A model generated the notes under the pieces. That model was given only the letters and a program-made list of their open reading frames with translations. It was not told the origin of the DNA and did not search any database. Positions 1,007 to 63,010 of a stretch of DNA of 64,000 nt are shown here, in pieces. The stretch's first letter is position 1. The number at the start of each line of letters is the position of its first letter. Origin of the DNA: Henricia sp. BOLD:AAB3569 (taxonomy: Eukaryota; Echinodermata; Asteroidea; Spinulosida; Echinasteridae). The position numbers and the translations under genes were made by a program. The DNA lies in the NCBI GenBank assembly GCA_037783545.1, contig JBBELK010000372.1, positions 310,001 through 374,000 on the forward strand. Direction: 5' to 3'.

Positions 1007-1895
1007 CAGGGCTGTAGTCGAGTCCACACTTTTCAAGTCCGAGTCCTTGAGTCCGAGTCCAGCATACACCCGAGTCCTCAGCAGGCCAAGTCTAAGTCAC
1101 TAGTCCTTAGTTTCAATCTTAAGTGCATTACTATCAAGCATCAGTGATAGTGTATAGGTCTCTGGCAGCTCGTAAGTTATCTTTAGGCCAAGGAAAATAG
1201 TTCTTTGGCAGGTGAAATACATTTCGAATGCTCAAAATCATTTCAAGCGGTTGAAATTTCATGATCTCAAAATTTCATTTCACATGTTTGAAAGAAATTC
1301 CTCAAAAATGTTTGAAAACTCAAGTTTGACTAACAATTTCTCTCTTGTTACCAAGTCATTTTCCTTGAATTTGGTATCATTAGAAAGCCCTGTTATTCCT
1401 CTTTACAATAATGTCATTTGTTACAATTAAGCAATTGGGGGATGTGCAGCACAGCAGATGAGGGTGGGTGTAAATTTACTGCTATTGTCATACAGTGCAT
1501 TCCCCTTTTGCTTGGGAGATGGGAATGTGTCAACGCACTTTTTGACAATAGCAATGCATTTTGTGACATTTCATTTTACACCCACCCCCGTATTCAGCTG
1601 TGCTGCACATCCCCCAGTTGCCTAATCATAACAAAGGACACATCATAATAAAGAAGAATAACAGGGCTTTCCAATGATACCAAATTCAAGGAAAATTATT
1701 TGGCAACGAGAATTTTTTGGGACAGGCACTCGTAATCATATACTTTTTGTAAAATGCATGTGTATTATTTTGTTCACTGGACTCGGCCTAAATCTCTGAG
1801 TCCTTACCGCCCAAGTACGAGTCCGAGTCCTGACTGGCCGAGTCAGAGTCCTTAAAAATCGGGACTCGAGTCCGGACTCAAGTCCTACAGCGGTG
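1007..1895. repeat. Foldback element with GAGTCC-reiterated arms, inside MYO3 intron 1
   Basis: The left arm (about 1007-1085) and right arm (about 1780-1895) are built from iterations of GAGTCC/GGACTC, and are inverted relative to each other. The ends read GGGCTGTAGTCGAGTCC on the left and, inverted, CGCTGTAGGACTTGAGTCC on the right. Flanking words CAGCTGACA and GGTGACAGCTGA suggest a short target duplication. A second foldback (about 1290-1725) lies between the arms. Confidence 0.6.
1290..1725. repeat. Long foldback repeat, family copy 1 (TTGAATTTGGTATCATT arms)
   Basis: Arms of about 150 bp are inverted: the left holds TTGAATTTGGTATCATTAG...GCAATTGGGGGATGTGCAG and the right holds its complement CTGCACATCCCCCAGTTGC...AATGATACCAAATTCAAG. 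The centre holds a short inverted pair, CACTTTTTGACAATAGCAATG opposite ACTGCTATTGTCATACAGTG. A second copy of the same element is at 8482-8980. There is no coding capacity, so this is a non-autonomous element. Confidence 0.7.
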
Positions 1896-1952
1896 ACAGC
1901 TGAAGTAATCCTTGAGAACCCAATATACACATGTAGAAGGTCAGAAACTTAC

Positions 1953-2097
1953 TTTTTGCAGCTGCATATTCCCCCGTCTCCAGGTTGCGGACCTTAAAGA
2001 CGCCGCCATAGGTACCTTCACCGATGGATTCAAGGAGCTCCCATTGCTCCGTGGGGTTCGGAAGGGAATCGAACCACTCCTGGAGTTTGCCCGCCAT
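1953..2097 (-). CDS. MYO3: Class III myosin, first coding exon (start of kinase domain)
   Basis: The exon begins with ATG at 2095-2097 (context GGCTGAATGGCGG, with an in-frame TGA just before the ATG) and encodes 48 residues plus one base, ending at the donor GCAAAAA|GTAAGT. Residues include WFDSLPNPTEQWELLESIG, matching the short N-terminal lead of MYO3/NinaC (xLPDPTDxxExxExI). The glycine loop GEGTYGGVFKV lies at about residues 26-36, and the VAIK-type lysine is at the end of YAAAK (K48). Splicing to 710 restores Ile and the frame. A 5'UTR exon further upstream is likely but I could not place it. Promoter not identified. Confidence 0.88.
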
Positions 2098-2210
2098 TCA
2101 GCCAACAGACAAATCCTAAATCAAGAAATAAGAAAAACGAAATTTTTAAAAAGTACTTTTCTTGAATCCGTGGTTACTTCTACCAAGCATCAACTGTCCA
2201 GAAAAAACTA

Positions 2211-2549
2211 AGGAGCGTGACCAGATTTTTTTCAAAAAAATTAATTTTGTTCTAACCCAACAATCAATTAAAATTCCTCCCCAAAATACTATCCATGGGG
2301 AGAAAACAGGAAATTTGCAATCTCCAATTTGGATGTGGAAACAAAAAGGTTGGTGTAATCACTGCACTGTTTTAAATTAGTTTACATAACATCAGTGGCT
2401 TTTTGACAACCTTGAAAATATATGGATTGGGAGTGCAAAATTTCAGAATGGTATAAATGAGAAAACTATGACAAATTATGTGGTATCAAAATCTCAACAC
2501 TCATGGGAAAAAAATAGGGAGCTCAAAAATGTGATCTGGTCACGCTCCT
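2211..2549. repeat. TTAA-type MITE, family A copy 1
   Basis: About 340 bp with inverted ends AGGAGCGTGACCAGAT and ATCTGGTCACGCTCCT. The right side is followed by TTAA (2550-2553); the left flank is a decayed CTAA. The interior has diagnostic words CCCCAAAATACTATCCAT and AAATTTCAGAATGGTA. Five copies occur in the window (also 12637, 50220, 56479, 61553). It has no coding capacity. Confidence 0.8.
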
Positions 2550-2729
2550 TTAACTACATGTACTGTACATTGTATTAAAGTCAAAAGGTATTTCCATTGG
2601 ACTGTGTGGTTAAACTGCACATCCCATGGTGATCAAGCACCATGACGAATTATTGCATGACATGTGCTACATTGTTATTTGGTAGAATTACAATATTAAG
2701 TTCAATGGGACAAACAACTTTGGTTTTAA

Positions 2730-2948
2730 CTAAAATACAGTCCACACTAGAGCACTTTGCCGTTCCGCTGCCGTTGTATTTTGGGTGCGCGCCCAATTTG
2801 ACGTTCCCAGTGTGGACGTCCACAGAAACGACAACGGTAGCTGTTAACGGCAAACGCTCAAAGTTGAAGGGTTTCAACTTTCAGCGGTACCGCTGACGTT
2901 GCCGTTCCGTTGACGTTCCGTCGAAATTCACTCCAGTGTGGATGCACC
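2730..2948. repeat. TTAA-flanked foldback, core word ACGTTGCCGTTCCG
   Basis: The ends are inverted (GTCCACACTAGAG and CTCCAGTGTGGA). The interior repeats GCCGTTCCG, GACGTTCCG and AACGGC in both directions. TTAA lies at 2726-2729 and 2949-2952. The right TTAA is shared with the next foldback. Confidence 0.55.
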
Positions 2949-2952
2949 TTAA

Positions 2953-3155
2953 AGCCGCCCTCGATCTTGCAACCACACAGAACAGTCGGCGACTGGCTTT
3001 TCAGGACCAAGCCGCACTTGAGTTATGCCCGTCGGCATCAAAATAGTCGGCAATTGTTTTGAGACCTGTGTGCAAGCTCCGACGGCATTACGGCAATCGG
3101 CATCAGGCAGCGATAAAAAAATAAACAATGCAAAAGTAGTTCATCTGAGGGCGGC
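2953..3155. repeat. TTAA-flanked foldback, core word GTCGGCA
   Basis: The ends are AGCCGCCCTCGAT and ATCTGAGGGCGGC, inverted and bounded by TTAA at 2949-2952 and 3156-3159. The core iterates GTCGGCATC, GTCGGCAA and CGGCATTACGGCA. It abuts the preceding element at one TTAA. Confidence 0.6.
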
Positions 3156-3578
3156 TTAATCACTAAAACACAGCGATGGAGAACAATTAACATCAGGAAT
3201 ACTTGCATTACAAAGACAGACAAGGCTAGAAACATTCATTGCCTTTGAAAAAGTAGCCGAAAGAAGCAAATTGACAGACACAATTCTATTACAAGTATGA
3301 TAATGCAAGTTGAGTGCTTAATACACGACAAGAAATTCTAAGAAGGAAGCAATCAATCGATCGAGAGACATCAAAAAGCTCTCGAGGCATCGCTTGTAGG
3401 CTTGGCAACATCTCAGATGAATTTGCATGTAATCAAGTGTGAAGATTGGTCATCTATATTGCATGATTGTGGGTGGAAAATCAATGCTGTACTGCACTCA
3501 GTCTGAGACTCAATAAAGTCAAACCTGTGCATAGTGGCCATTTGACAAAAGGTGGCCAGAATAAACAGGTTGCCACTG

Positions 3579-4473: not shown

Positions 4474-5075
4474 TGGGCCCATGTGCATAAAAGGCTACTA
4501 CCGGTAGGCCTAGTTGGCAACTAAAATGGACTTAAGTTGCTTACTAAGCCTAATTGATTACTAATTGTGATGCATAAAACCCAACTAGATATAGTAACAT
4601 TCTAAAATTCTGGCAAAAGTTAGAGTTGATCTGGGGTACCTCTAAGTCACTAGATGACAACTAATCAGTCTGCCTTTGGACAACATGGCTCGTAGAATCA
4701 TGGAGCTAAACAACTTTGTGCCTAAGCTTTGCTTCACAATGACGGATTACTTGTAAGTACTGGGCAGTAATGCAATGTTACAAAGACCCTTAGAAATGAG
4801 TTATGCTCAGTTGGAATGTGGTTCAAAGCTCAAACACAATAAACTTGTCTACAAGCCTATTGTATCTGACATAATCACCTCCTCTCCAAGGCCATAGCAC
4901 CCAAATCAGTTACAAACCAAATTGTCCTAGTATGCAACTAGTAAGCAATGTGCCTAGTGAGGTTTTATGCAACACAAATTAGTTGCCAACTCCGTAGGTA
5001 TAAACTAGGGAATTTATAATCTTACTAAGCACTAGTTGGCAGCTAAACTAGTAGCCTTTTATGCACATGGGCCCT
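4474..5075. repeat. Foldback with GGGCCCATGTGCATAAAAGG ends, core CTAGTTGGCAACTAA
   Basis: The inverted ends GGGCCCATGTGCATAAAAGG and CCTTTTATGCACATGGGCCC are perfect over 20 bp. Near both ends the core repeats CTAGTTGGCAACTAA, TAAGCAACTAG and similar words on both strands. Single copy in this window. Confidence 0.7.
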
Positions 5076-9535: not shown

Positions 9536-10888
9536 CACCCTCAAAGCCGTCCAATGTTATATAATTACCTCCGTCACATGACGACATAATTTATGACATT
9601 TCCCAAATGAAAATGTCGTAGATATTCCTCAACATTTCAACACAAAACACCTACTCTAATTCTAGACCATCTGTTGGACTATCTTGCAAAAAAAGTTGCA
9701 TAATATTTTACATGGCCCGAGTCCTACACGATCGTTTAGTTGCAATACGGTACAAGATACTTACAATTCTAAAGACTCGTCACAATTCTGGTGTTAAGTT
9801 GAGCGCCGCAAGCAATAATGTTGGTATCCTGCACACTTTATAAATCGAATATTTTTCAATATTCTTTGAAAATGATGAATCAGTACTTTTGATCATGGAG
9901 CTACACGTATAAAAAGGATAGCTCCATGCTCTGATAGAGGAAAAGACAATTCTTTGTCACTGCAGCCGAGTGACCTTGTCAAGCAGACTCACTCGTGACT
10001 AGCTTGATACAACGTTGCGCGCAGCAGACTTCCTGATTAAGTTAAATGGCCAGAAAAAAATGCTAAAATATTCTAATGTAAAATCTGAAAGTTCTGGGAA
10101 TCAAAGTGATACGTGTACTGCATAGTAGTTTCATTTTTTGTTGCAAGGGTATGCGTACATGCCTAAATAATGTGTGCAAAATGAGATGCCATGCTGAATA
10201 AATTAGTGGCCATTTCATTACGTGCCTGGCCTCTCAAATTCTGGACACCACACACAAATTAATTGTTTTGAAAAACAAATGAAAAAGAGGGAAAATTCTT
10301 TAAAAAGAGTCTCACATTCTTGTTTTTCAATTGTGCAATTGAGTACCGTATAATGCATGTAATTTAAGTATCCGTAGTGCCCCCACTACGGATAAGCAGT
10401 TCCCCCAAAATAGAAAGGTTTAAAGGTAGAATACATGATTAGTATCTCGAGAAATCAGAAATGTTCACAATACACAATATTAACACGATGACGGTAGAAA
10501 ACTTCCCCTAAAATGGTTTTGTCTGAAATGCTATAGTCTTTGAGAAATGAGCAAAACAATTATTTTTTCGTCTCTCGAGACGTAAATTTATTTCGCCCTA
10601 AAACCACCTCGCCCTGGACCACTTCGCCCTGAAGTACTTCACCCAAAGGCTACTTCGCCCCAAAACCACTTCGTCCAAACACTACCTCGCCCAACTGCCA
10701 CTTCGCCCCAAAACAACTTCGTGCACAGGCCGTGGCACAGGCCGTGGTTCAGGGCAAAGTGGTTTTGGGGGCGAAGTGACTGTAAACCCTTTTTTGACTG
10801 TTTTCTCAAAAGTTAGATACAGAACTGATTTTTGCTCCGGTTGGTTTTAATCACGCATACCTTCAATCACACAGGGTGATAATATAAA

Positions 10889-11022
10889 TTGTTGACTGGT
10901 GTGGTGTGGGATATGGAGTTTTAACACCCGAGGGAGCTCATAGCACCCGAGGCAACGCCGAGGGTGCTATGAGCTCCCGAGGGTGTTAAAACCCATATCC
11001 CACACCACACCAGTCAACAATT
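10889..11022. repeat. Near-perfect palindrome nested in the CTTCGCCC MITE
   Basis: About 134 bp reads almost the same on both strands: AATTGTTGACTGGTGTGG...CTCATAGCACCCGAGG, a short turn, then CCGAGGGTGCTATGAG...CCACACCAGTCAACAATT. The word CCCGAGGG(A/T)GCT is reiterated. Such a palindrome should extrude as a cruciform or hairpin. Confidence 0.8.
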
Positions 11023-11447
11023 GTTTTGTTATATCCCGTCTCATGGTCTCCGTATACAGCATAATAATATCGTTTCTATTATTTGGAATGTTGAAATTGT
11101 AAAAACAATTCGTCTCTGCACTTTCGCTAGTCTTCGGACTACTACTACCTGTGCGCGTGTGTGTAACATTGCGAAAGTAGCACGCGCACAGCGTGTAGAA
11201 TAATGCGATGTGCGTGCGCGTTGTGCGCCTCTAGCGGGCGTAACACGTGGTTTCTTTTTCTAATGGAGCCTCATACAGCGCGTTACGCGTGCTATGGACA
11301 GGGGCAAGAACACTCATAGTACGGCCGGGTGATATGAAGTTAAATTCGCATACGGCAGGGTGATATGAGTTTTTATCGCATGGACATGTGACCGTTCTGG
11401 ACCAATGAAACTGCAGTATTCCAAGACGGGGTATAACAAAACTAATT
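11023..11447. repeat. Second nested insert with inverted TTTTGTTATATCCCGTCT ends
   Basis: TTTTGTTATATCCCGTCT at 11024 is opposed by AGACGGGGTATAACAAAA at about 11425-11444. The interior holds GTGCGTGCGCGTTGTG, also seen at 37765, so it belongs to a family dispersed in the window. Confidence 0.55.
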
Positions 11448-11481
11448 GTAACGGTTTACCAATCATGTATACTACCTTTAA

Positions 11482-12495: not shown

Positions 12496-12499
12496 TTAA

Positions 12500-14850: not shown

Positions 14851-16150
14851 TCAAAAGAAGAAAGCAATTTGTGACAAAGCCATTTGTTTTCCCCGCTGAT
14901 TGGAAATGTCAAGATGTGTGTTTGCAAAGGATGAGAAATATGAAAATCTGGACACACAATTTTGTGGTTTGTTAGCCAAGTCCTGTTTTTATTGGGGCAA
15001 ACCCTTTTAGTGATGCCAATCAGTCTTAACGTGTTCAAATATTTTGGGTTTTTCCATAAACAAATCTGCACATTCCAATGCTAGATGAGTTATTTCAAAG
15101 AAAACCAATTCTGATCAACTTCCTAACTCTTGCCGATACATTTTGTCCATCGTCAAGAACACACGATTGAAAGAATTGAGAAGTTGATCATGGCTTGAGG
15201 ACCTTATGAACAAAACACATAAGACTGGTTTGAAAAAAATTATCACTATTTCATCAAATATGCACACGTATACCAAATGATGCTTAATGAGTCAAAAAAA
15301 ACTTCTCAACTCTTATCCACGTGATCATAATCATATACAGTACTTCACTTACCCAGGTTGTTTCACAATTTCTCAAAGAACAACCATTGCAGCACATCGG
15401 ACTCGGGTCATAAAATCACAGGAAACGTGTAGCTGAAGGCACTCTCATTTTGGTCTTTGACTGTTCAATTTGTAGGCTTCAATACTGTAGTTCTGCAAAT
15501 TAGACCACGTACATGTACAGGTTAGAGTTAGTGTTTTTAACCTTTTTCTGTGGGTTTAGTGTAAGCTGTGAAAATGAGCTGCATCGTCAGAGTGGCAGAA
15601 CGGTTGATGTGTGTTGGTATCTTCATTGGCTCACAGTCACTGTCGGAGCCACACGGCCTTACACACTCATTAGTCACTGATCAATAATGGTACGTACATG
15701 TACATGTAGTGTTGTAGCTATAGACCAATCCGGTAACTAAGGTCTCCTTCCCTGTATATCAGAGTAATCAGACTTGAAGTTGAGGAATTCTTCGCTGGCT
15801 TGGCGCAATATGTCACTGTGGGGGCGCTTCATACTGCATCGCATTCTTCCATCGCATTCTCTACTAATCAATTAACACACATGATTTCGCGGAAAAACAG
15901 CCAATTTCTATAATGTATATCTCGGCTACCGCTTGCTAAATTTATGCGATGAATGTTGTTTTGGAATTTACAGAAAATAATCTGTAATGGTGAGATGATA
16001 TTTTCAATCAAAATCAAACTTTGAATTTTTTTCCAAGTCCTTAGCCAAGGGACAAATATCATTTGCCTGAGTTTGCCACAGATTTGGGGTTAGAAATGGC
16101 AACAGGGCGGATAATACGACGCCCTGTTCACGGGTCTAGTGTAGGCCTAG
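14851..16150. other. Spacer without recognised gene
   Basis: No splice-supported exon or structured repeat was recognised. The short frames seen here lack any family motif. Confidence 0.35.
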
Positions 16151-16506
16151 AGTCAGGTCAACTCGACCGTTTACCAACTCGACCGTGTACCAACTCGACC
16201 GTGTACCAACTCGACCGTGTACCAACTCGACCGTGTACCAACTCGACCGTGTACCAACTCGACCGCAAACCAACTAGACCGCAAACCAAACCAACTCGAC
16301 AGTCACCGCCGACAGCAACCCGGGCGCCAGCAAAGACATGCCGACAAACCCGCGGCAGGCCCTGTGTCGTGTTCAGTGAATCAGTGTGCGAGCGCGAGCC
16401 GACATTCACCGGCCGAATCCAGCGACGCGACACGGCTTCTCCTGTTTTGCATTTGTATGGTCGAGTTGGTTTGCGGTCGAGTTGGTACGCGGTCGAGTTG
16501 ACTGAC
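16151..16506. repeat. Foldback with CAACTCGACCG word, 16-bp tandem array
   Basis: The left arm is a tandem array of the 16-bp unit ACCAACTCGACCGTGT (about six copies, 16165-16265), then AACTCGACCGCAAACC variants. The right arm (16458-16505) carries the inverted word CGGTCGAGTTGG three times. The middle 16280-16455 is GC-rich. Open frames across both strands are a by-product of the 16-bp period. Confidence 0.75.
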
Positions 16507-16978
16507 ATCCGTAGGCCTAATCCGTATGGTGCATGCAAGTGAAGTGGTACATGGTGGTACGGTGCACGCGAGGGCCAACCAAGAAGACGAGCACCGTGCA
16601 CGACGACCCTGCAATTTTGTTTCTTCTGTGACTGTCTGACTCGACGTTTATAACTGCTCCCTTAAATTTTAAAACACTGATCTTAACCCCAGAGCATTTA
16701 GAATTTTAGAAAGGAGAACAATTACCTGATTTTCTGCTCCCAAAAGGTTTAGTTTACTGTGTGCAGTAACTAAAAGTTTTAAGACATACCGCGGTTCATA
16801 ACCGATTCTCCATCGGCGAGCGCTGCGCCGGTAACAATGAATAGCGACCTCTATTGACGGAACATGACAGTTTATCTGTATGTGCGTTCGAGTAGCTTAC
16901 CAATATACACGGAGTTTACACCCGATAGGAAACCTCCAGAAAATGCAAAACAAACGTCAGGTGATTTCGCTGACACAA

Positions 16979-17939
16979 GGGGCGTTTGAGATGCTTACAC
17001 CGTGTAACAATGAGTTTACACCGGGGGAAGCCCCCAGAAGATGCAAAACAAACGACACGAACGACATTTTTCCCTTGGGATGCTTTGCCAACTATATGAT
17101 ACTGATACTGATACTGACCGGTGTCACGGTCTCAGATGTTCCGCGTGCTTAGATGTTCCGATGACGTCACGGAACAGTTCAGCACGTTGCATGCACGATC
17201 TCAGATGTTCCGCGTGCTCACATGTCCCGGTGTAAAAGGTAAAACTGTCCCCTTGCGAATGTGTACCCGGCTTTCCATAGACGAGTGCATACAAGCATTG
17301 TAACCAGTGGCGAACGTTGGCAACGTTTGCGTATGTGGAACGCAGCCCTGTACATCTGCGCGCTAGGCGCCTACGTACATGGCGCGAATTCTGCTGATCA
17401 ACTCAGCACTTCACCTAAACTGGTATAATTACGTATGCTGTGCGCATGACGTTCCGTGACGTAAGCTACCATATTTGGTCATCGGAACATCTGAGCACGC
17501 GGAACATCTGAGATCGGGACACCGGCACGGGGTTTCACTTTGAATTCTGGGGAAACAGGTCAAAAGTTGTTGCCGGGTGGGGCTTTATAAACGCTGTTAT
17601 CGTTTGACTCACGATGAAAAATAAAGCCAGCGTGAGCGCCACGCAAAAAAAGTTGCCCTAAAGTACCGCAATAAACGTTGTCAATGCTCACAGAAATGTA
17701 TTTACAGCCCTTATTTTGTGTCATAAATCTGTGTTTTTCTTCGTACTCACGTCGCGATTCCAAACTGTCCGCCATGTTTTACCATTCGCGGTTACTAGAT
17801 GACGTAATTACACCAGAGACCCAGCCGCAAGCTCGGGCAGTGGTGGCTGCCACCGGGGCAGACTCGTGTATCACGGGATGGCTAAAAGAACGCTCCGGTG
17901 TAAGTTGGTGTTACCCGGTGTAAGCATCTCGAACGCCCC
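16979..17939. repeat. Nested foldbacks with GTTTACACCGG and TCAGATGTTCCGCGTG words
   Basis: The outer arms GGGGCGTTTGAGATGCTTAC (16979) and GTAAGCATCTCGAACGCCCC (to 17939) are inverted. Inner arms at 17118-17170 (CTCAGATGTTCCGCGTGC twice) oppose 17470-17525 (GCACGCGGAACATCTGAG). The words GTTTACACCG and GGTGTAAG are reiterated around the outer arms. At least two elements are nested. Confidence 0.65.
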
Positions 17940-18207
17940 TACAGTAAACGTGTCCCTGACTCAGTAAATGTGTCATGTTTACTGTGTCAGGTGAGTGACA
18001 GAATCTGGCCAATCGCGGCAAGTGTCATCCAGGCTTGGTGTTGAAGTTTAGCAGTAGTTGGAGCGGTCAAATTAGTGGGGCGCGCAAAGCACTGCTAAAG
18101 GATCTAGGAGTGTATGGTTGTGGTGGTTGACAGCGGGGAAATGTAGACACGAGTATCACGTGGTGGCAAATCGAACGCGCCGTTACTTTGACCGGCTGGA
18201 GGCTTAA

Positions 18208-19389: not shown

Positions 19390-19711
19390 AGCTAGTTTCA
19401 TACTTCTCCGCCGAACTCACTCGCCGCATACTCGCCGCACACTCGCCGAGTGTAGTCGCCGCAGAGTTTGTACGCGATCATACAAATCCGCTTTGTGCAA
19501 AGTAGTCGCCGAGGTATAAACGGGTTTTGCAGCGCACTTTGTATGCGCGTTTTAATTCAGAGCGCGCGCATAGAAACGGGTGGAAACGACCCGTCCGCTC
19601 AGATGCGGACTGACCGCGCACTGTTGAACTTGTTTGACCCTACTCCCCGCAATTGCGGCGGTCAAAATTTCCGTTCCGCATGTAGGTCGCCGAGCGAGTA
19701 TGAATTAGGCT
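19390..19711. repeat. TTAA-flanked foldback, core word CTCGCCG
   Basis: The left end AGCTAGTTTCATACTTCTCC is inverted with the right end GAGTATGAATTAGGCT; TTAA lies at 19386-19389 and 19712-19715. The core iterates ACTCGCCGC, GTAGTCGCCG and GGTCGCCGAGCG. The left arm is also mirrored just outside the element (19355-19385), giving a near-perfect palindrome about TTAA. Confidence 0.7.
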
Positions 19712-19715: not shown

Positions 19716-20299
19716 TCCCACCAAGCCCGACACGTACGCTTCCCGAAACGCTTCCCGAAACGCTGCCCGACAACGCTGCCCGACACAAATGACCCCAGTT
19801 GTGTCGGGAAGCAGGGGTGTGTCAGAGCAGTGGGTTCAAGATTCCGACGCACCCCACGACACAAACACGACACAGATGGTGCATCGTGTGTGTGTTTTAG
19901 GGTTCCCGACACTTTTTAAAATCATACGACGCACCCACGTGTCGGAATGTGTCGTGGGCGTCCACGACTCCAATCGTGATATTGGTCAGCATATACGACA
20001 CGAATCGCGACGCACTCGTGCCACCGACAAAGGCAGCTACGAGCGTTATCACCCTCATATGCATTTTGATGGAAGATGACAAAAACACGGACAGTTAGAC
20101 CCCCGGGTGTGTCGTTATGACGTCAGTTGTGGCGCACTCTTGGCGCGCTTTTTGTCGTGCGCGACATGCACGCTTGCGACACATGACACAGATGGTCCAT
20201 GACACGCGCGGAGACAGACTGTGTCGGCCCGTGTCGTGAACCATGTGTGTCGTATCTGTGTCGCAAGCGTGTCGTGAGCGTGTCGGGCTTGGTGAGTTC
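19716..20299. repeat. Foldback with ACGACAC / GTGTCGG core, abutting the previous element
   Basis: It begins right after TTAA 19712-19715 with ACCAAGCCCGACACG and ends with CGTGTCGGGCTTGGT near 20293. The core iterates GTGTCGTG, CACGACAC and CCCGACAC on both strands through nearly 580 bp. The right flank is TTAC, not TTAA. A 203-codon open frame here comes from the word periodicity. Confidence 0.7.
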
Positions 20300-21490: not shown

Positions 21491-21724
21491 TTAAAGATGC
21501 CATCAAATTATTACTGCAACAATATAAACTTCCATTTTTTTCCTCAATGTTTAAAGATTTCGTTCACGACGTAAAAAGGTCGCATGGTGTGCAAGGTTAT
21601 GGGTCGAGAGAGTAGTGGGAATTCGGTTTATGTCGGCCACTTTTGAACATGACATTTTGTTCAAATATTTGGCGGATTCCGCGAAATAGTGTTCTGCATT
21701 GAGAATGACATACTCTAAAAACAA

Positions 21725-21960
21725 CTTAGTCAAAAATAACTAGGCAATAAGTGTCAGCTGAGTGCAACTGAAAATCAGTCAGTTTGACTAGATTTTCTAA
21801 TCAGGATGAGTCAAATCTTTGTAACGTCAAACAGATATCTAGTTAAAACTGCAGACGGAGTCAGATTTACTTTTGTAACTATATTTCTAGTCATTTATCG
21901 GTATAGTTTTCGGGGTCCGCTGAGTGCAATGTTTTGACTGATTTCTAGTCAAATTTTACG
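21725..21960. repeat. Region of reiterated AGTCAAA / CTAGTCA words
   Basis: TTTGACTAGATTTTCTAATC, GATGAGTCAAATC, TTCTAGTCATTTATCGG and GACTGATTTCTAGTCAAATT recur on both strands, and GCTGAGTGCAA occurs twice. This fits the word-reiterating foldback class. Neighbouring sequence to 22070 has no gene. Confidence 0.4.
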
Positions 21961-22074
21961 AAGTGTTTCATATACGCACATTCAATTTTATTATTATTAT
22001 TATTTCTTTCTGGTATTCATACCAAGGATTCCTCAATAGTGCTCATTGCACTGTCACTCGCAAGCGTGAGGAAA

Positions 22075-23621: not shown

Positions 23622-23835
23622 AGCACGATATGTGGCAAAGGGACTTTAACCCCCCCCCCCCCCCCCCAACCCCCCCCCCCCCCCCCCCCCCCCCTCCCCC
23701 CTCCCCCCCTCCCCCCCCCTATTCCTCAACACACTCTTCCCTTTTGTTAACGCACCCCTCCCCGCCCCCTTGGATGTTTGAGACACAATAGGGGAACAAT
23801 GGTAGGGGGAAACCCTCTGCCACATATCGTGCCGC
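23622..23835. repeat. Foldback enclosing a 70-base C-rich tract
   Basis: The arms GCACGATATGTGGCAAAGGG (about 23623) and CCCTCTGCCACATATCGTGC (to 23833) are inverted. Between them is an almost pure C run with a few T and A (about 23650-23720). The G-rich strand could fold as G-quadruplex and the C strand as i-motif. The run length is likely to be unstable and prone to sequencing error. Confidence 0.7.
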
Positions 23836-27997: not shown

Positions 27998-28250
27998 TAT
28001 TCACCGGCAATCGGGAGAGAACAAAATAGGGAAAATAGGTCCCCGATTCGGATGTCAGACAACTCGACCGTATGTGCGATAAATGGAAAGACAAGTCGAC
28101 CGTTGAGACAACTCGACCGTTGAGACATCACCCTCCCCCTTTTACTTGTCTCAACGGTCGACTTGTCTCAACGGTAGACTTGTCTTTCCATTTATCGCAC
28201 ATACGGTCGAGTTGTCTCAACGGTCGAGTTGTCTCAACGGTCGACTTGTT

Positions 28251-28281
<31 letters not shown>

Positions 28282-28560
28282 CACCCCCCCCCCCCCCGAT
28301 TCACCCCAGGTCCCCGATTGCCAATACCGTGCAAATCCTATAGAGGCCTTCGCAAAAAAACTATGTCCATACTGCAGAAAAGAGGACCAATGGGACCGTC
28401 AGCGACTGCCGGTAAAAACAAACCCATCTATGGCAAACACCGGCAATCGTGGACGTAAGTTACCTATAGATTTGAAATTTGAAACGTAAATGGTTTGTGC
28501 CCTAACCTATAATGATTTGTGAAACCTATAATCGTTTGTGGTATGAATCCCGTTTACTGG
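27998..28560. repeat. Foldback with CACCGGCAATCG ends and CAACTCGACCG core
   Basis: The outer word TTCACCGGCAATCG at 27999 recurs as ACACCGGCAATCGTGGACG at 28440, followed by AACGTAAATGGTTTGTGCCC and TGATTTGTGAAACCTAT. Those flanks reappear inverted at 62660-62850. The core 28057-28250 is a large palindrome of TCAACGGTCGA(C/G)TTGTC words, followed by a poly-C run at 28256-28302. The core word is also that of 16151-16506, although the outer ends differ. Confidence 0.65.
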
Positions 28561-32975: not shown

Positions 32976-33397
32976 TTAACCCTTTCAATACCACCCACTC
33001 ATATAAGACAGTACCCTTGTTTACCACAGCAATTACGAGCCCAGTGTCACTAGAGACCCACTGGTTTGGGAGACATTTCATTGAAGTGAGCCCTCTGTGG
33101 TTTACATGCACTAAATAGCTCTGATGATTTTGTGTACACCTGATGACACAAATCATACAAAAAGGAGAGAAATTTAGTGTGCATCTTTTTATACAACAAA
33201 AGTAATACAAACTGGTAATACAAGGCCCTGTACTCGTACATCAATATAAAAATGAAAAACCTTATGAAAATACCTAAAAAGTATACAATACAAAAGAAAA
33301 TTAAGCACTGAAAAGTTAAAAATCTAAGAAATTAAAAATGCTTGTCTAAAAAGATGTGTCTTCAACCCTACTTCTGCATGTACTTGTATTTTCTCTC

Positions 33398-33520
33398 GCC
33401 CCTCCCCCTCCCCGCCCCCCCACCCCATTCAATGTTGGTTTGAATCCGTGGCTTGTCGAACCAGTCTTCAACATTGAATGGGGCGGGGGGCGGGGGGAGG
33501 GGGGAGGGGGAGCAGATTTG
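33398..33520. repeat. C-rich/G-rich hairpin inside the piggyBac element
   Basis: CCCCTCCCCCTCCCCGCCCC and CACCCCATTCAATGTTG are answered by CAACATTGAATGGGGCGG and GGGGCGGGGGGAGGGG, inverted around about 45 bases. It lies 3' of the transposase frame. The G-rich strand has more than four runs of four or more G, so G-quadruplex is plausible. Confidence 0.75.
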
Positions 33521-33554
33521 AAGGCGAGCAGATTGTACATATACATACTTACAA

Positions 33555-33833
33555 TCATTTCGTATGATATTTTTCAAAACAAGGAACTGTGCACATTGGT
33601 TTATTACATTCTTTACAGATCATCCGGGTCTGTTTTCGCCCGTTTAATGTGCGGTTGCTACAAACAATGCAGTCGCGTTTCTTTCCATTGCGGTTTTTGC
33701 CAGGATAGTGTTGTTGTCTTGCCAAATCAATAGGAATGTGGTATCTCGGCCGACTTGTTGCATTAGTACGTTCCCAACCTAACAGCAAGCCTTGTACAAT
33801 ACCTACACGAAAATCTAGGTTACTGACATGTCT
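33555..33833 (-). pseudogene. piggyBac C-terminal zinc-binding domain, out of frame
   Basis: Just past the transposase stop (33820-33822) another frame continues with LDFRVGIVQGLLLGWERT, the usual piggyBac segment before the tail, and then a Cys-rich domain: CIVC, MICKEC, MCTVPC and a final EKYH, i.e. C-x2-C ... C-x2-C-x4-C-x3-C-x4-H. It ends at a stop at 33555-33557. The shift between frames is one base forward (an insertion of one or loss of two bases near 33825-33840). The Cys-rich domain binds the transposon ends in studied piggyBac enzymes, so the frameshift probably disables this copy unless it is a sequencing error. Confidence 0.8.
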
Positions 33834-35154: not shown

Positions 35155-35433
35155 CTGCAACAAAAACAAACTATAACATTAGAGTATAATCTTTGTAGTT
35201 GCAAACAAGGAAACAAGAGCCATTTGAGCGGTTTTTTTACTACATGTATGATGTACATTTCTCAATTTCAGCATTTGTAACCCCATAGACCTATATAGGC
35301 CGACGTTAGGGGTGGGCCTACAAAAATACTGGGCCTGGTGAATTACATGGGATAGCAATTAGCCTAATTGATTCATTAACATAACACCGATCATGCTGAT
35401 GATAATGTTCACCAAAGAATTAGTAATTATTAC

Positions 35434-35550
35434 CTCATGGTATTCTGGATCGTCGTCAGAAGAATCATCTTGAATGGAACTTTCCTCCGATTCTGAGCCA
35501 CTGTCTGCCAAAATTTCGGCCAACATGCCATCGACGTCTGTTGCCATCAT
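35434..35550 (-). CDS. piggyBac transposase, exon 1: acidic N-terminus
   Basis: ATG at 35548-35550 (a second ATG follows directly) opens 39 codons rich in Asp, Glu and Ser (GSESEESSIQDDSSDDDPEY), ending HE at donor GAG|GTAATAATT. An Asp/Glu/Ser-rich start is usual in PGBD4-like transposases. The next exon starts at 35154 in the same phase, giving a 279 bp intron. No ATG precedes the first recognisable residues in exon 2, which supports the splice. Confidence 0.78.
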
Positions 35551-35870
35551 AGTTTCAGGATGCAAATGGCGTCTGTACTGTGCGTCCTCCCCTTTTATGT
35601 ATTCACGGCAAACCCACCCTATTGTTGTCCCTTTTTAGTTTTGTGAATTTATATAGGGCGGGCGCGCGTGTAAAACTTGAACCGTCTTCATTCATGCCAA
35701 TAGAGGGCGCCAAACAAAAAAACTCTGAAAGCATTTGCATTTGCAGGTGGTGACAAAAGTCGCCTTGGGTCTCAACTGAAAGACAATCTCGGGCACCATT
35801 TGGTGCCTTTGGGATTAAAGCGAAAAAAACAAAGGGCTCCTTTTGGCGCCTCCGGGAATGAAAGGGTTAA

Positions 35871-36391
35871 AGGCAGTATACATGATTGGTATCTCGAAAA
35901 TCAGAAATGTTCACAGATTTACGCCCAACTTACACAATATAAACATTATGACCGTAGACAACTTCCCCTGAAATGGTTTTGTCTGAAGTGCTATAGTATT
36001 TGAGAAATGAGTAAAACAATTACATGTAGTTTTCGTCTCATAAGACGAAAATTCAATTCGCCCCAAAACCATTTCGCCCAAGTGCCATTTCACCCCCAAA
36101 CCACTTCGCCCGAGTGCCATTTCGCCCCAAATCACTTCGTCCAAACACTACATCGCCCAAATGCCACTTCGCCTCAAAACCACCTCGTGCACAGGCCGTG
36201 GTTCAGGGCGAAATGGTTCAGGGCGAAGTGGTTTTGGGGCGAAATAATTGCAAACTTTTTTGAATGTTTTCTCAGAAGTTAGACGAAGTACGGAGCTGGT
36301 TTTTGCTCAGGTTGGTTTTAATCATGCATATCTTCTATCACACAGCGGGATAAAACTATTTGTAACAGTTTACCAATCATGTATACTATCT
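35871..36391. repeat. CTTCGCCC MITE copy B, TTAA-flanked
   Basis: The ends AGGCAGTATACATGATTGG and the inverted CCAATCATGTATACTATCT are bounded by TTAA at 35867-35870 and 36392-36395. The core 36055-36245 iterates CCACTTCGCCC(C)AAA and turns around at CGTGCACAGGCCGTGG to GGGCGAAGTGGTTTTGGGG. It is about 521 bp and lacks the nested insert of copy A, so it approximates the empty site. Confidence 0.88.
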
Positions 36392-36474
36392 TTAAACCGT
36401 TCAACAATGGAAGCACAATATGAACAACCATGCATGCGCTCAAGGAAAAAACTGCCCCACGAAATAGCGGCTTG

Positions 36475-36951
36475 TCTAAAGCGGGCCTCCCACTGTGCGA
36501 TTTTGGCTACGAAATAGGTACGATTAGCTACGATTTGGTTACGATTGTGTATAGAGTATACACAATCGTAACCAAATCGTAGCTATACACAATCGTAACC
36601 AAATCGTAGCTAATCGTACCGAATCGTGGGGAATTCGTGACAAAAATCGCACAGTGGGAGGCCCGCTTAAAGCAGGCCTCCCACTATGCGATTTTTGTTA
36701 CGATTTGGTTACGATTGTGTACAGGGTATACACAATCGTAACCAAATCGTAACTAATCGTACTGAATGTAGCAGCTACAGACCCATTACACGTGTAAAGC
36801 GGGCCTCCCACTGTGCGATTTTGGCCACGAATTTCCTACGATTAGCTACGATTAAGTACGATTGTGTGCAGTGTATACACAATCGTAACCAATTCGTAGC
36901 TAATCGTACCTAATTCGTGGCAAAAATCGCACAGTGGGAGGCCCGCTTTAA
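36475..36951. repeat. Array of three palindromic MITEs of family E
   Basis: Copies at 36475-36666, 36671-36766 (truncated) and 36796-36947 carry arms AAGCGGGCCTCCCACTGTGC and the inverse, around ACGATTGTGTATA/TATACACAATCGT. The first two meet at one TTAA (36667-36670). The core reiterates CGTAACCAAATCGTAGC and GGTACGATTAGCTACG. Confidence 0.85.
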
Positions 36952-45330: not shown

Positions 45331-45669
45331 CTGTCTATTCAACGTTTATCATCAAAGCCACATACTTCTGCAGTCCATCTCAACCATAATTTTAAAGACT
45401 TGGCAAAAAAAATATGGCTGTTTAAATATGCCCCAAAGCCTTTGGTAGCCAGTGAATCAGTATTTAACACACCGGCACAACCGGTTTCCTTTTGTTTTTT
45501 AACCGATTACGTCTTAATCCTATGTGTTAACAGGGTGAAATTTTAGTTCCTTAGGTTACAAATTAAAAAGTGAAAAATAAAACTAGATGTTTTCTGGTTA
45601 AGTGCATTGTTCTGTGTGCATTGTTTGCATTCTGTTTGAAAAACAAATTGTCAGAAAAAAATTTGTTTT

Positions 45670-45795
45670 GTCATGTTTTGCTTGAGCTTATCTTGAGCCG
45701 GTCTTGAGCCAAAATACCAAGACCACTGGGTCCTAGAAATGCTTGTTCAAGACCAAGACCAAGCCAACTTGGTCTTGAAACTAGTCTATCTTTAC
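45670..45795. repeat. Word-reiterated segment (TCTTGAGCC / AAGACCAAG)
   Basis: CTTGAGC occurs three times followed by CAAGACC and GGTCTTG words on both strands within 120 bases. It fits the reiterated-word class; ends not defined. Confidence 0.45.
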
Positions 45796-45920
45796 AATGC
45801 AATGGAAGGCCTCAAAATCTGAAAACAGTAGACATATTTCCGTTTAAATACATCCCTATGACATTTGGGATATGACTATAACACACAATATTTTTTAAAT
45901 AATTATTATATCAGGCATTA

Positions 45921-47815: not shown

Positions 47816-47867
47816 CTACATGTACAAAGAGACAACCAGACAATCAGCAAGGAATTAGGCTTGGGCA

Positions 47868-48252
47868 ATTCCATACCGGAATAAAGTGGAATTGATTCCA
47901 CCTTGGAAATCAGAATCACGATTCCAGATTTTTAAGAAATCGATTCCTCTTCATCTAATTTCGATTCCCAGTGATAGCTTGCCAATTCCAAAAAATTACC
48001 TAGCAATTCCAAAGCCAGATTACTCGACTTCTGCAAGTGTATTTAGCCTCTGATAATCTCCACATTATTATGAACATATGGGCACAGGCCGGCATCATTT
48101 CATAGATGTTTAGTGCCGTTAATGTACACGCACTTTAAACACACTAGTTTAAAGTTCTCCCATGAAAAATGGAATCGATTCTAAATGGAATTGCAATTCT
48201 TTTTTTGGAATCGGAGTCGACTCCGAAAATGCTGGAGTCGCCCAAGTCTACG
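47868..48252. repeat. Foldback with GATTCC / GGAATC core, in the UIM-gene intron
   Basis: The ends GGCTTGGGCAATTCC and the inverted GGAGTCGCCCAAGTC enclose reiterations of GGAATTGATTCC, CGATTCC and GGAATCG. It lies about 50 bases upstream of the acceptor of the terminal exon. Confidence 0.65.
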
Positions 48253-51954: not shown

Positions 51955-52145
51955 CTGAAAAAAGGTACATTGAAACTTGTCTACAGTGGCCACCATCGGT
52001 ACCGTAAAAAACTGGCCACTATATGGAGGTGGCCTCTTTATAGAGGTCTCAAGCATTATACACATGGCATTTGGGACCAAAGGTGGGTGGCCACTATATG
52101 CAGGTGGCCTGTTTATCAAGGTGGCCTTAATAACAGGTATCACTG
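51955..52145. repeat. Word-reiterated segment (GGTGGCC / GGCCACTATA)
   Basis: ACAGTGGCCACCATCGGTAC, TGGCCACTATATGGAGGTGG, GGTGGCCACTATATGCAGGT and AAGGTGGCCTTAATAACAGG iterate one phrase. Inverted bits CTACAGTGGCC and CACTGTAG are at the ends. Confidence 0.55.
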
Positions 52146-55152: not shown

Positions 55153-55385
55153 TTGGTCTGTCCACCATGTTGTTGATACAATGTAACAATGGTAACAAAA
55201 GGCATTTTCACACGACATCAAAAAAACTTTCGGGGATTGTTTAATTTATGATTACACGGTAGAGTGATATAGCGTACTTTCACATGATACAGCGAAACCA
55301 TCACTGACATTCCTTGAGACAAGAATGCTTTTTCCGCTGGTCGCTGTCACACCATTGATTATGCGCATAAGTGCTGCTGGTACTA

Positions 55386-55868
55386 CCTTTCACACCGGAT
55401 CTGCGTATTGTTGCGTACCGACTACGCCGAAATTAGGCTGCGTATTCATGACAAAAATGTTGCTTCGGCGTAGAATAAAATCTAGCACTGCAGGAATAGT
55501 GATAAAAAGTCCAGCAGGGATCAAGCAGTCACTGTGGCTAGGCTGCGCGCAGGTAGGATCTAGGACGCCTTTATACGCTTTTACTGCTTCGTCGGACTGG
55601 CGTAGGGTAGCGTACTATTGCGTAGGCATGGCGTACAGTAGCGTAGTGTTGCGTAGACTTGCGTAAAAAATGCGTACTTTCTGCGTCTAGTGTCTACGCC
55701 GAAAGTAGGCGAAAAAAATTCAACATGTTTAATTTTTTGCGTCCATCTCGCGTACCCCTTTGCGTCCCGTATAGTTACGTAGGCCAGCGTAGGGCAGCGT
55801 ATGCTCGGCGTAGTCGGTACGCAACACTACGCAACTCTACGTATGGCCCGGTGTGAAAGGGGCTTAAG
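55386..55868. repeat. Foldback with GCGTAG / CTACGC core
   Basis: The ends CTTTCACACCGGATCTGCG and the inverted ...GGCCCGGTGTGAAAGGGGC are followed on the right by TTAA. The interior is almost wholly GCGTAGGGTAGCGTAC, GGCGTACAGTAGCGTAG, GCAACACTACGC and similar. Two plus-strand open frames here come from the periodicity. Confidence 0.72.
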
Positions 55869-56798: not shown

Positions 56799-57134
56799 TT
56801 AACAAGATGGGCTAGGAATCATAAAACAAGCTCAAGTTTTAAGCGAAGTGTCTGGGTCTTTTTTGGCTGGATGATTTAAACACATAGTTTCATGCCAAAC
56901 TGGACATAACTGATTTCATCGAAATCACTTGAATACGTACTTCCACAAATGAAATCAAATGCATTTCTGATAAAATCGAGCGAGAAAACCTATAATAAAA
57001 GTTTAAAATAATTTAACAGAGTTGATGCCAAATGTCAAAAAATCATGTCAAAATGTGCAATGTCCATAACGCTTGTTACTCAACCCTGTAGCTAACTTAT
57101 CAATAGACCAATCCAGTTAGCCCCGCTCACTTAA

Positions 57135-58182
57135 GCCCTTTTCACACTGCAGAGCCAATCCCCGGGAAATAAATCCCCGGGAAATTCCCGGGGATTTTTT
57201 ACCCCACCAACGCCCCAGCAACCGTTCACACTAGACCCATTTGGTAACTCCCGGGGACACTATTTCCCGGGAATATGCACGGTCGTTTCACACTGGCCAT
57301 CAAACCCCGGGAAATGTGTAAACTGAGGGCGCCCATCAGGAAGTTCCCAAATGCAGGTTCGAACCTCCCCACGGCTATGGTACCTGTGCCCTTGGGCAAG
57401 GCACTCAACCACACTTGCTCCATCCTTCGGAAGGGATGTAAAGCCGTTGGTCCAGTGTGTTAGGTAATGGAAACGCACTCTAAAGATCCCAGAGCATTCT
57501 TTCGTAAAGAGCAAGGGGGATCATCCCCGGTGTCTCTGGCCATTTTTAATTATAATTCTAATTCTTCATGGGTTTCCTCACGCTTGCGAGTGACAGTGCA
57601 ATGAGCACTATTGAGGAATCCTTGGTATGAATACCAAAAATAAATAATAATAATAATAATAATGAATTGTGGGCGGAAGTCCAATCCCACAATGCCGCGC
57701 CGCGCGCGCATTTTTATGCACAAGCTGCTGTTGTTGTTTACACCGTGCGATATACATGCGATATGTCAGGTTGACGTTGCGAGTACGAGTGCGTGGATAA
57801 TGGCTGCCCATCTGACCAGTATTTGCGTCCTGGTTTTGTTTTTTATTTACGAAAAATTTGAAAGGTACTGCATCACAATACTAAGCTACCGCGCGAATTA
57901 TTTGGCGCGCTATTTGTGACCATGTGACCTTTCGAGATTACCCGTGGACGCAAAAAGGTGGGGTAAGTTCAAACCCTGCGACGTTCACACTAGTTGCTTT
58001 TCCCCGGGAAAAACGTTAAACCCCGGGGATTTCTCCTTTAACCCTACTCCCGAGCAGGGGTAAATATTTCCCGGGGAAAAGCTTTTTCCCGGGGATTTCT
58101 TTGGTAGTGTGAACAGACCGACCGAAATTCCCCGGCAATTTCCCGGGGAATTCCCGGGGAATTCGTCTAGTGTGAAAGGGGC
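57135..58182. repeat. TTAA-flanked foldback with CCCCGGGAAA core
   Basis: GCCCTTTTCACACTGCAG and the inverted ...CTAGTGTGAAAGGGGC are bounded by TTAA at 57131-57134 and 58183-58186. Both arms are filled with CCCCGGGAAATTCCCGGGG variants. A SINE (about 57340-57660) has inserted between the arms. Confidence 0.82.
57340..57660 (+). mobile_element. tRNA-Leu-derived SINE, copy 4, nested in the CCCCGGG foldback
   Basis: The B box CAGGTTCGAACCTCCCC is followed by GCCCTTGGGCAAGGCACTC, GGATGTAAAGCCGTTGGTCC, AAAGATCCCAGAGCATTC and CGGTGTCTCTGGCC, then an (AATTCTA) and (AAT)n tail at 57640-57662. The tRNA head is truncated at the 5' side. Confidence 0.75.
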
Positions 58183-58960: not shown

Positions 58961-58968
58961 GGGTTATT

Positions 58969-59392: not shown

Positions 59393-59394
59393 TT

Positions 59395-60735: not shown

Positions 60736-60835
60736 CGGTAACTGGACATCGGACTGGACTTGTTCCCAGTCCATTCGCAGCTACGCTGCCGGGGTTTACG
60801 AACCAACCAGTCCAGTTACCGACTTGACATCAAGT
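60735..60835. repeat. Small foldback (AAGTCGGTAACTGGAC stem)
   Basis: AAGTCGGTAACTGGAC (60732) and its inverse GTCCAGTTACCGACTT flank GACTGGACTTGTTCCCAGTCC. About 100 bases. No gene from 60840 to 61110. Confidence 0.6.
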
Positions 60836-61117
60836 CTATAGATGAGTACTAAGGAGAATGACGTGCTAAAGCACTTTATGACTTGCAGTTTTTATTAACA
60901 GCATTTATTACTGCCACAGATGTCAATCGACAATCATTTATAAGCAAACAGTAAAACTGAAAGTTTACAGTGAACTGTTTACTCTTTAGCAAATTTTTGC
61001 ACAAAACAAAGCACAAATATTTGCTTGAGCAAAAATGTAGGTCACAACACATACTTATGTCTAGCATAAAATTGGAGTGTGCATACACATTATCGTCGGC
61101 TGCGTTATTGTGTGTTG

Positions 61118-61488
61118 TTAATTAGGGTTTGTTTTTGCCCTTACCCGGCATAATTATTAACACTGTATACTCAGTGCTTTCCCGAGACACTATGACAAAC
61201 TTCATAGCGTGCTCGGGTGGGACTCCAATCCACGACCTCCTGCAAACAAGGCAGACGTCTTAACCACTCGACCACCGAGCTACATGTAGCCGGTGTTGAA
61301 TGGCCGGTTCGAATCATTTTGCAACAGGGATCGCAATTAATCAGTAATTGATTTAGCTTGCATCGGGGAGAATGAATCTTAATTAGGGTCTGTTTTTGCC
61401 CTTACCCGACGTAATTATTAACACTGTATATTCAGTGCTTTCCCGAGACACTATGACAAACTTCATTGCGTGCTCGGGTGGGACTCGA
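61118..61488 (-). mobile_element. tRNA-like (Thr-TGT pattern) repeat with direct duplication
   Basis: The block 61118-61225 is repeated directly at 61378-61488 (TTTTTGCCCTTACCCG, AATTATTAACACTGTATA, GTGCTTTCCCGAGACACTAT). Between them the minus strand, about 61282 down to 61213, reads like a tRNA: acceptor halves GCTCGG/CCGAGC, GTCGAGTGGTTAAGACG in the D arm, and a perfect anticodon stem TCTGC/GCAGG around CTTGTTT (anticodon TGT). The T loop is TTGGAGT instead of TTCGAAT, so it is probably a retroposon head rather than a working tRNA. Confidence 0.5.
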
Positions 61489-61552
61489 GTGTGTTGATCG
61501 TCAGCCTCGACTAAGTCTTTGTGCAAATTTTCAGAAATCATTATACTATTAA

Positions 61553-61899
61553 TGGAGCTTGTTCAGATTTTTCCAGAAAATTGATTCTGCTCTCACCTTA
61601 CAATCATATAAAATACCTCCCCAAAATACTATCCATAAGAATAAAACAGAAAATTTGCTATCTCAAATTTGGATGTGGAAGCAAAAAGGTGCTGTAGTCA
61701 CTGCAACCGGATAAATTAGTTTAGAAAACATCGGTATTTTTTTTTACTATATATATATATACGGATTGAGAGCACAAAATTTCAGAATGATATTATGAGA
61801 AAAATATGACACATGATACGGTATCAAAATCTGAAACCCATGGAAAAAATTGGAGGGTTGGGGGTGGGGGGGGCAAAAATGTGATCTGGACACGCTCCT
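61553..61899. repeat. TTAA MITE family A copy 5
   Basis: It is bounded by TTAA at 61549-61552 and 61900-61903. The ends TGGAGCTTGTTCAGAT and ATCTGGACACGCTCCT are recognisable, with CCCCAAAATACTATCCAT inside. Confidence 0.82.
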
Positions 61900-62199
61900 T
61901 TAATGAATTAATTAGATGGCTATTTAGTCATTACTACCATAGTAAACTCTCACCTACATGTAACCATGGATTGGGTTATGTCTCTGACCTCTAAAATGTA
62001 TGTTTCTTTTGGAAAATGTAACCTCCAATTTCTTGAGCACATGATGAATTTAGCATACATTTAGCACAAAAATACAATGGCTAGCATCCGATTTGGCTTG
62101 CTAAGGTTTATTAAGAGACTGTTCCGTTTAGCACACTGCTGAAGCAGAAATTGCGTGCTGATGTATTAAAGTGAGCTTTTTACCAGATAAATAAGAGTG

Positions 62200-63010
62200 G
62201 AACCTTATCAGGTTCGTGCAGTAGTACTTTACTCACCTTTCACCTCTGTGGCCCTAGTTCGAATCCCATCTAGGTCAATATGTGGATTGGGTTTTCAGTA
62301 CCTGTTTGATTCTGTGGGTTTCCTCCTAGGCCTACATGTGTGTGTAAAAACACGGCTGCGTGTGTATTTGCCTCCAATCGTGGACCTTCATAGCAATAAA
62401 CACATTCAAACCGTGGACCCTCAACGAACGTGGACCGTCCACGGTTGTAAAACTGTGGTTCTCAAACCTATATTTAGGTTTGAGAACCAATTATAATTAT
62501 TATTGGTTCTCAAACCTATATAGGTTTGAGAACCAATTATAATTGGTTCTCAAACCTATATTTATAACCAATTATAATTATAGTTGGTTCTCAAACCTAT
62601 ATAGGTTTGAGAATCAATTATAGGAAAAGATTTCTTCAATGACACCTAACTTAATTTTACCTTTATAAATAGGTTTCACAAACCATTACAGGTTAGGTCA
62701 CAAACCATTTACGTTTAAATTTCATCTCTCTAGCTTTAGGTAAAATTAAGTTGGGTGTCATTTAAGAAATTCTTCCCTACAGTAAGGTAAAATTGAGTTA
62801 GGCGTCATTAAAGGAATTCTTCCCTACAGTGAGGTCCACGATTGCCGGTGAATACAAGTATAAGTGTGTGTGTGTAGGGGTTTTCCCTCCCACATCTAAG
62901 ACTGAGCATTTCATCATCTTTTCTGCACAGGTTTCTTCAGGCTTACAAACTACAGTGCCATGGGCACTTTTGAGGAGTCCTTGGTTTCAGTACCAGAAGG
63001 AATTACATGT
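62200..63010 (+). mobile_element. SINE family 3, copy 4, split by a foldback insertion
   Basis: The 5' half (62205-62345: CACCTCTGTGGCCCTAGTTC, GGATTGGGTTTTCAGTACC, GTGGGTTTCCTCC) and 3' half (62870-63010: GGGGTTTTCCCTCCCACATC, CTGCACAGGTTTCTTCAG) make one SINE when the DNA between is removed. It matches the copy at 20300. Confidence 0.55.
62350..62865. repeat. Foldback with CACGATTGCCGGTGAATAC end and GGTTCTCAAACC core
   Basis: The core 62455-62620 iterates GGTTCTCAAACCTATATA and its inverse six or more times. Outside this lie CGTGGACCGTCCACGG words and the flank ATAGGTTTCACAAACCAT, ACAAACCATTTACGTTTAAA, GTCCACGATTGCCGGTG, which is the inverse of DNA at 28430-28530. Confidence 0.7.

Follow-up and report, generated by a model that had tools for sequence, protein, structure and literature searches.

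The 64-kb window analyzed here (positions 310001-374000 of contig C372 in a 740.7-Mb, 2104-contig assembly of Henricia sp.) contains 16 mobile elements, or clusters of elements, whose interiors iterate a short word. Every word examined genome-wide is a family trait, passed on through a family of many copies. Elements of different families can have matching ends around different cores, whereas the members of one family also match in their cores. The elements are non-autonomous DNA transposons, resembling miniature inverted-repeat transposable elements (MITEs), and they belong to several families and insertion types. We infer, with a probability of about 0.7, that the words serve as subterminal binding sites for a transposase or for its helper protein.

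Words listed in an earlier interpretation of the window (hereafter, the sequence-only reading) were counted in each element against 100 shuffles. The count was strong for CAACTCGACCG, with 12 and 7 copies in its two elements (shuffle maximum 0 and 1), for GAGTCC (13 copies, maximum 2), for CCCCGGGAAA (12, maximum 2) and for GCGTAG (10, maximum 3). It was weak for GTCGGCA (2 exact copies, maximum 2), CTCGCCG (3, maximum 1) and CTAGTTGGCAACTAA (6 copies allowing up to 3 mismatches, maximum 2); in the last case a single site may be counted twice, because the word is nearly self-complementary. The later inferences lean mainly on the strong words.

Because these words had been picked beforehand, we added a scan blind to the word list, in 400-bp windows overlapping by half, and scored those in which one 7-mer occurred at least 5 times. 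Such iteration was found in 24 of 319 windows, as compared to 1 of 1595 dinucleotide-shuffled ones. The scan recovered the elements for 10 of the 14 listed words, some through an overlapping 7-mer, and missed the GTCGGCA, CTAGTTGGCAACTAA, TCAGATGTTCCGCG and CTCGCCG elements. The iteration of private words is thus borne out, in 16 elements or clusters rather than the claimed twenty or so. The scan also picked up two unlisted word clusters, one of AGTCAAA at 21640-21990 and one of CAAGACC/CTTGAGC at 45640-45800. An enrichment of CpG, as for methylation-sensitive binding, was considered and dropped: CG occurred in 9 of 14 scan words against 5.6 expected at equal GC (P = 0.03), and in 9 of the 14 listed words against 7.2 expected (P = 0.22), which was unconvincing.

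The end AGCCCCTTTCACAC is common to four or more families whose words are unrelated. Genome-wide, CCCCTTTCACAC gave 192 + 174 matches, versus 28 + 33 for the reversed control, and from the first 100 listed of these 366 places we fetched all 14 convergent pairs lying less than 2 kb apart. Identical TAA/TTA flanks were present in 10 of the 14 pairs (11 when one extra C in locus L014 is allowed), a 3-bp TWA duplication as in PIF/Harbinger-type MITEs, of which TAA/TTA duplication is a hallmark. This 3-bp duplication, in those 10 pairs, is what the sequence-only reading took for a TTAA boundary in the CCCCTTTCACAC group; a true TTAA is seen at the CTTCGCCC elements. When the interiors of the 14 genomic elements and two window elements were compared, they fell into exactly four clusters with zero cross matches: GCGTAG (8 members), CCCCGGG (2), GCCGGA/GGATG (4) and ATCGTAA (2). 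All four families possess arrays. Exact end signatures numbered 50 for GCGTAG, 93 for CCCCGGG and 10 for ATCGTAA, each with 0 in the reversed control, and of the first eight listed single CCCCTTTCACAC sites, assigned by eye, six belonged to the four families and two to none. The expectation that elements with the same ends would carry different cores, followed here at the places listed, thus holds between families and fails within them. The GTCGGCA, CTCGCCG and CGATTGTG elements, whose AGC-type ends were grouped by eye, may belong to the same end group, bringing the word families under it to perhaps seven. One GGATG-family copy, L004, contains a tandem expansion of a ~24-bp unit with open frames of more than 300 codons, and reads as an array that is expanding into a satellite within the element.

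A genome search with the CAACTCGACCG element at 16149 gave 923 first-look candidates; the best 40 were scored, yielding 201 matches, and 30 loci were fetched. Both family ends, starting with GGAGTCAGG/GGATGTCAG (presumably not a typical hAT start), were recognizable within 3 mismatches in 25 of the 30. With up to one mismatch allowed, 8-bp duplications flanked 12 of these 25 (11 of 21 with four same-insertion pairs counted once). Among 600 mispaired flanks there were 2, both contributed by L029/L030, two loci of a single insertion. Neighboring words are spaced by 16 in 193 of 280 pairs, the next spacings being 31, 32 and 21. With repeat-built inverted ends plus the 8-bp duplication in these copies, the family conforms in these respects to the Galileo/Foldback pattern. 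Its end pattern occurs 334 + 313 times in the genome, dispersed, versus 0 times reversed. A third end variant, GTCAGGTCAAGTCGACCG, occurs at many single sites with no partner within 1 kb (among 100 listed of 647 places), behind which there is likely a sister family whose second end differs; at C7:840694-847161, three family ends lie within 6.5 kb.

The distribution of the CAACTCGACCG word itself bears on the idea that the cores are high-copy satellites, each picked up a single time by an element. The words are indeed tandemly repeated, as that idea supposes, but adjoining word pairs (534 + 475 genome-wide, 0 reversed) fell, at 100 listed of 1009 places, into 38 dispersed short clusters, the longest being a run of 13 pairs, or about 14 units. 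Nineteen of the clusters had a listed family end no more than 600 bp away, and the other 19 held only one or two pairs. Among the places listed, then, this word, the one tested, formed no long tandem arrays independent of elements, and we consider satellite capture, which the sequence-only reading had itself raised, extremely improbable.

Changes in word number could be followed between matched copies. Four CAACTCGACCG pairs have common immediate flanks (L029/L030, L035/L052, L036/L038 and L047/L055), with a matching flank of more than 600 bp on one side for the first three, which was not found for L047/L055. Inside these pairs, length differences of 48, 128, 16, 16 and 16 bp were all multiples of the 16-bp unit, a sixth difference, of 63 bp, equaled two word spacings (31 + 32), and all six were direct in orientation. 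L039/L054 also share one flank (610 bp at 90%), where L044 resembles them. A second comparison was offered by C353, a contig homologous to the window (85-99.8% identity in the collinear blocks compared) that may be its other haplotype or a duplication of it. Both contigs carry 8 of the 16 elements, and among the seven of these in which words were counted the number was equal for GAGTCC, GTCGGCA, CTTCGCCC copy a, CTCGCCG and ACGACAC, while in C353 the GATTCC element was short by one word and the GGTTCTCAAACC element had 6 words where the window has 11. Word-bearing gaps measured 12 bp in GATTCC, 13 bp in ACGACAC and 131 bp in GGTTCTCAAACC. Word number thus does vary between matched copies, in a way that agrees with slippage or with misaligned exchange rather than with inverted copying.

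These observations do not favor the mechanism put forward in the sequence-only reading, which has each element make its own core, through hairpin-templated copying or repeated template switching, before the core becomes fixed. Near-perfect hairpins do occur, in CAACTCGACCG copy b (z -26), the third CGATTGTG copy (z -26) and the GGTTCTCAAACC element (z -22), and template switching in gap repair is named as one origin of defective transposon copies (PMC4168063). Such copying could account for the first origin of the mirrored arms, which may be older. But the cores are common to families of copies, the GCGTAG family keeps its two ends distinct (one of each in 11 of 11 close convergent pairs), and inverted copying is needed for none of the matched-copy differences examined. 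We therefore judge per-element generation of the cores to be very unlikely.

The direct unit steps agree better with another alternative, that the elements are ordinary MITEs carrying neutral minisatellite words, duplicated by replication slippage and without any role in binding. The position of certain arrays, at a distance from the ends, also speaks for neutrality. However, in several families the words reappear inverted at the opposite end, and arrays are present in each of the four families that share one end. Moreover, in the CAACTCGACCG family the GGATGTC arm keeps word spacings of 31 and 32 at 16 of the 30 loci even though array length varies. On balance, neutral words seem rather unlikely, if less so than the copying mechanism.

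Foldback shape, the other property ascribed to these elements, was confirmed in part. A z of -3 or lower, relative to shuffles, was obtained for 12 of 15 elements tested, the others being CTCGCCG (-0.5), the CTTCGCCC core at 10571 (-1.9) and GTGGCC (-2.3); 4 of 12 control windows also reached -3 or lower, two of them overlapping, by eye, further hairpin elements. Folding back and iterating a word are independent features, as CTCGCCG illustrates by iterating weakly without folding back.

As to mobility, 8 of the 16 elements or clusters are missing from C353. Six of the eight have clean or nearly clean junctions, at which the target sequence is single in C353: GCCCTGG for CTAGTTGGCAACTAA, ACCGG for TCAGATGTTCCGCG, CCCGATTC for CAACTCGACCG copy b, TAA for the third CGATTGTG copy, TA for GTGGCC and TTA for CCCCGGGAAA. 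The junctions of the remaining two, CTTCGCCC copy b and GCGTAG, are unclean. Duplications of 8 bp flank the GAGTCC, GATTCC and CAACTCGACCG elements (15 of 20000 random flank pairs in the control); the first two, judged from one copy each, conform in this to hAT elements. The CCCCTTTCACAC group has TAA/TTA, the CTTCGCCC elements TTAA, the CTAGTTGGCAACTAA element 7-9 bp, and the GTGGCC element TA, as in Tc1/mariner MITEs. With several insertion types, the elements are therefore not the single class that had been claimed.

How could binding sites account for such arrays? Each family would move by cut-and-paste, with the short outer end acting as the site at which the transposase cuts. Inside it would stand copies of one short word in an array, which in several families points inward at either end, to be bound by the DNA-binding part of the transposase (a BED or THAP domain) or by a helper such as the Myb-like protein of PIF/Harbinger. 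Related families would keep the same cutting end, and the words would differ from family to family because, as we propose, every DNA-binding protein has a target of its own. Recognition would thus be in two parts, a cutting end plus an address word, and arrays would lengthen and shorten through direct unit steps. Several elements do show a mirrored word layout, in shuffle-tested word counts.

Several known systems resemble this design. Inverted repeats made of short tandem units also characterize the sea urchin TU foldback elements. Galileo/Foldback elements have target duplications of 7-8 bp. Galileo and Foldback have long inverted ends partly built of repeats, with binding sites inside the repeats and a variable repeat number (PMC3688188, PMC4168063, PMC4079207); Galileo families share a 40-bp end, beyond which they are family-specific, with a THAP site outside those 40 bp and more sites in the long-end repeats (PMC3688188). 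The elements here are smaller (0.2-1 kb), with much shorter words. In soybean CACTA Tgmt* elements, a subterminal motif recurs in both direct and inverted orientation and differs among families with CACTA ends; the conserved outer ends, the family-differing motifs, taken as TNPA-like sites, and the 3-bp duplication are all reminiscent of our case (PMC2613891). In contrast, the CCCCTTTCACAC group has TAA/TTA duplications in an animal-like genome, and no end starts with CACTA among those read (genome pairs, CAACTCGACCG loci and window elements). Hermes, a hAT element, combines an 8-bp duplication with many short subterminal motifs in both orientations, and its repeats are bound by BED domains (PMC10368747), whereas here no hAT transposase is tied to the words. 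In Harbinger3_DR a Myb-like protein recognizes a 9-bp subterminal motif (PMC9710019), and PIF/Harbinger-type duplications are of 3 bp (PMC2213677), as in the AGCCCCTTTCACAC group; the differences are the four unrelated words under one end, and that no autonomous copy was found. What the window presents is a rich case of a known design, in unusual variety. Its novelty lies in the group of families that combine a single end with unrelated words; we found no account of such a group for Harbinger-type animal MITEs in a partial coverage of the literature that included no search aimed exactly there.

A number of observations weigh against the words being binding sites. Searches for DDE_Tnp_4, hAT, Merlin and P transposases found no autonomous element that shares both ends and words with these families, and the matches could not be tied to the word families, with end sites considered at the first 100 places listed. 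The DDE_Tnp_4 search gave 606 candidates, the best 150 of which were scored, for 151 matches; CCCTTTCACAC was not seen in 30 fetched loci with about 1.5 kb on each side. Further matches, known by coordinates only, comprised 37 for hAT (dimer domain), 20 for Merlin and 19 for P (PF21787), none of the last being on contigs covered by the CAACTCGACCG end list, whose listed places stop at C82. A PF13359 match at C1742:25396 and a CCCCGGG-family end at C1742:31937 are ~6 kb apart, which is near chance (0.27 expected). In addition, 13 of the 25 CAACTCGACCG copies had no 8-bp duplication at the chosen register, mirroring was poor in GTGGCC, GCGTAG and GAGTCC, the CTTCGCCC words sit deep within the element, away from its ends, and L020, a member of the GCCGGA/GGATG cluster, has only one exact GCCGGA.

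Two candidates for autonomous ends were rejected. The CAACTCGACCG cluster in L063 and L064 (98% alike) lies between a THAP-exon-like stretch, recognized by eye, and the DDE domain, and in L071 a CTTCGCCC MITE merely adjoins the gene. L071 also contains, at about 2650-2925, a GTTTGC-word element with ends GTCTACACTAGCAAAC, which by eye resembles a GTCCACACTAGAGC element near 2743-2950 of the window.

In window coordinates, the GAGTCC element occupies 1007-1895, with a hAT-like end CAGGGCTGTAG, an exact 8-bp duplication ACAGCTGA at 999-1006 and 1896-1903, 13 exact words both here and in C353, and a hairpin element nested at about 1304-1695. The GTCGGCA element (2953-3156) has ends AGCCGCCCTC and a TAA duplication, and its two words are unchanged in C353. 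For the CTAGTTGGCAACTAA element (4477-5070), the empty site was read directly in L089, and the GCCCTGG duplication of 7 bp can be extended to 9 bp with one mismatch. CTTCGCCC copy a (10420-11481, TTAA at both ends included) has its words at about 10590-10775, and C353 has the same 10 words across the compared stretch, 10419-10985. CAACTCGACCG copy a (16149-16510), flanked by the 8-bp duplication GTAGGCCT, bears 9 forward words in its left half and 3 reverse words in its right half; in its C353 counterpart the array is 48 bp shorter and the other arm 63 bp longer. The TCAGATGTTCCGCG element (17112-17520) is nested in a longer one (about 16978-17940 by eye, ends AGGGGCGTT); ACCGG is repeated at its junction, the empty site was read in L030, and C353 differs there by a 6-bp ATACTG unit as well.

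The CTCGCCG element (19390-19711), with its 3 words, lies between TTAA sites, and at its left edge C353 has an extra insertion of ~760 bp (L090, about 2653-3415), also between TTAA sites, with ends AGGTACACACCGGC. The adjacent ACGACAC element (19719-20294, ends CACCAAGCCCGACACG) has mostly mirrored words and a 13-bp unit as its gap relative to C353; no clear target duplication was seen at its ends. CAACTCGACCG copy b (28050-28294) has the duplication CCCGATTC and a poly-C run at its right junction. Long poly-C runs occur at 28256-28297 and 23650-23719, and the former, located at the junction of copy b with the CCCGATTC duplication, is absent from C353.

A piggyBac element on the minus strand (32976-35870, TTAA at both ends included) contains a transposase frame at 33820-35169 (Pfam DDE_Tnp_1_7, E = 3.2e-77); this and a rhodopsin-type receptor were the Pfam matches among six frames tested, and the window reads accordingly as animal DNA. 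CTTCGCCC copy b (35867-36395, TTAA at both ends included) adjoins it, and both are missing from C353 along with a few bases. Next come three adjoining CGATTGTG elements (36473-36948, ends AGCGGGCCTCCCACTGTG); the empty site of the third is clean, with TAA, and the first two leave a short remnant. The GATTCC element (47856-48250) has ends TAGRCTTGGGC and an 8-bp duplication, CAAGGAAT/CGAGGAAT, with one mismatch. The GTGGCC element occupies 51968-52145. The GCGTAG element (55380-55864, 10 words) has the right end AGCCCCTTTCACAC and an eroded left end, and about 60 unrelated bp stand at its site in C353. The CCCCGGGAAA element (57134-58181) has ends AGCCCYTTTCACAC, and its empty site, CACTTAGAAAC, is one base short of the simple expectation. 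The GGTTCTCAAACC element (62375-62844) has ends CAATCGTGGACC, and its deficit of words in C353 corresponds to a single gap.

Hairpin-copied cores would have meant a new mutational process, which the evidence does not favor. If instead the words are binding arrays, one genome offers several families that share a cutting end but differ in their address words, and thereby a direct view on the evolution of transposase specificity; matched copies with different word numbers would also let the effect of site number on mobility be tested. A more speculative reading, which we hold to be doubtful, is that the ends are modular, one cutting end (AGC..., with TAA duplication) having been joined to different address arrays. 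If that were true, new mobile families would arise by exchanging the address array together with the DNA-binding protein, while the cutting end and the catalytic domain are kept.

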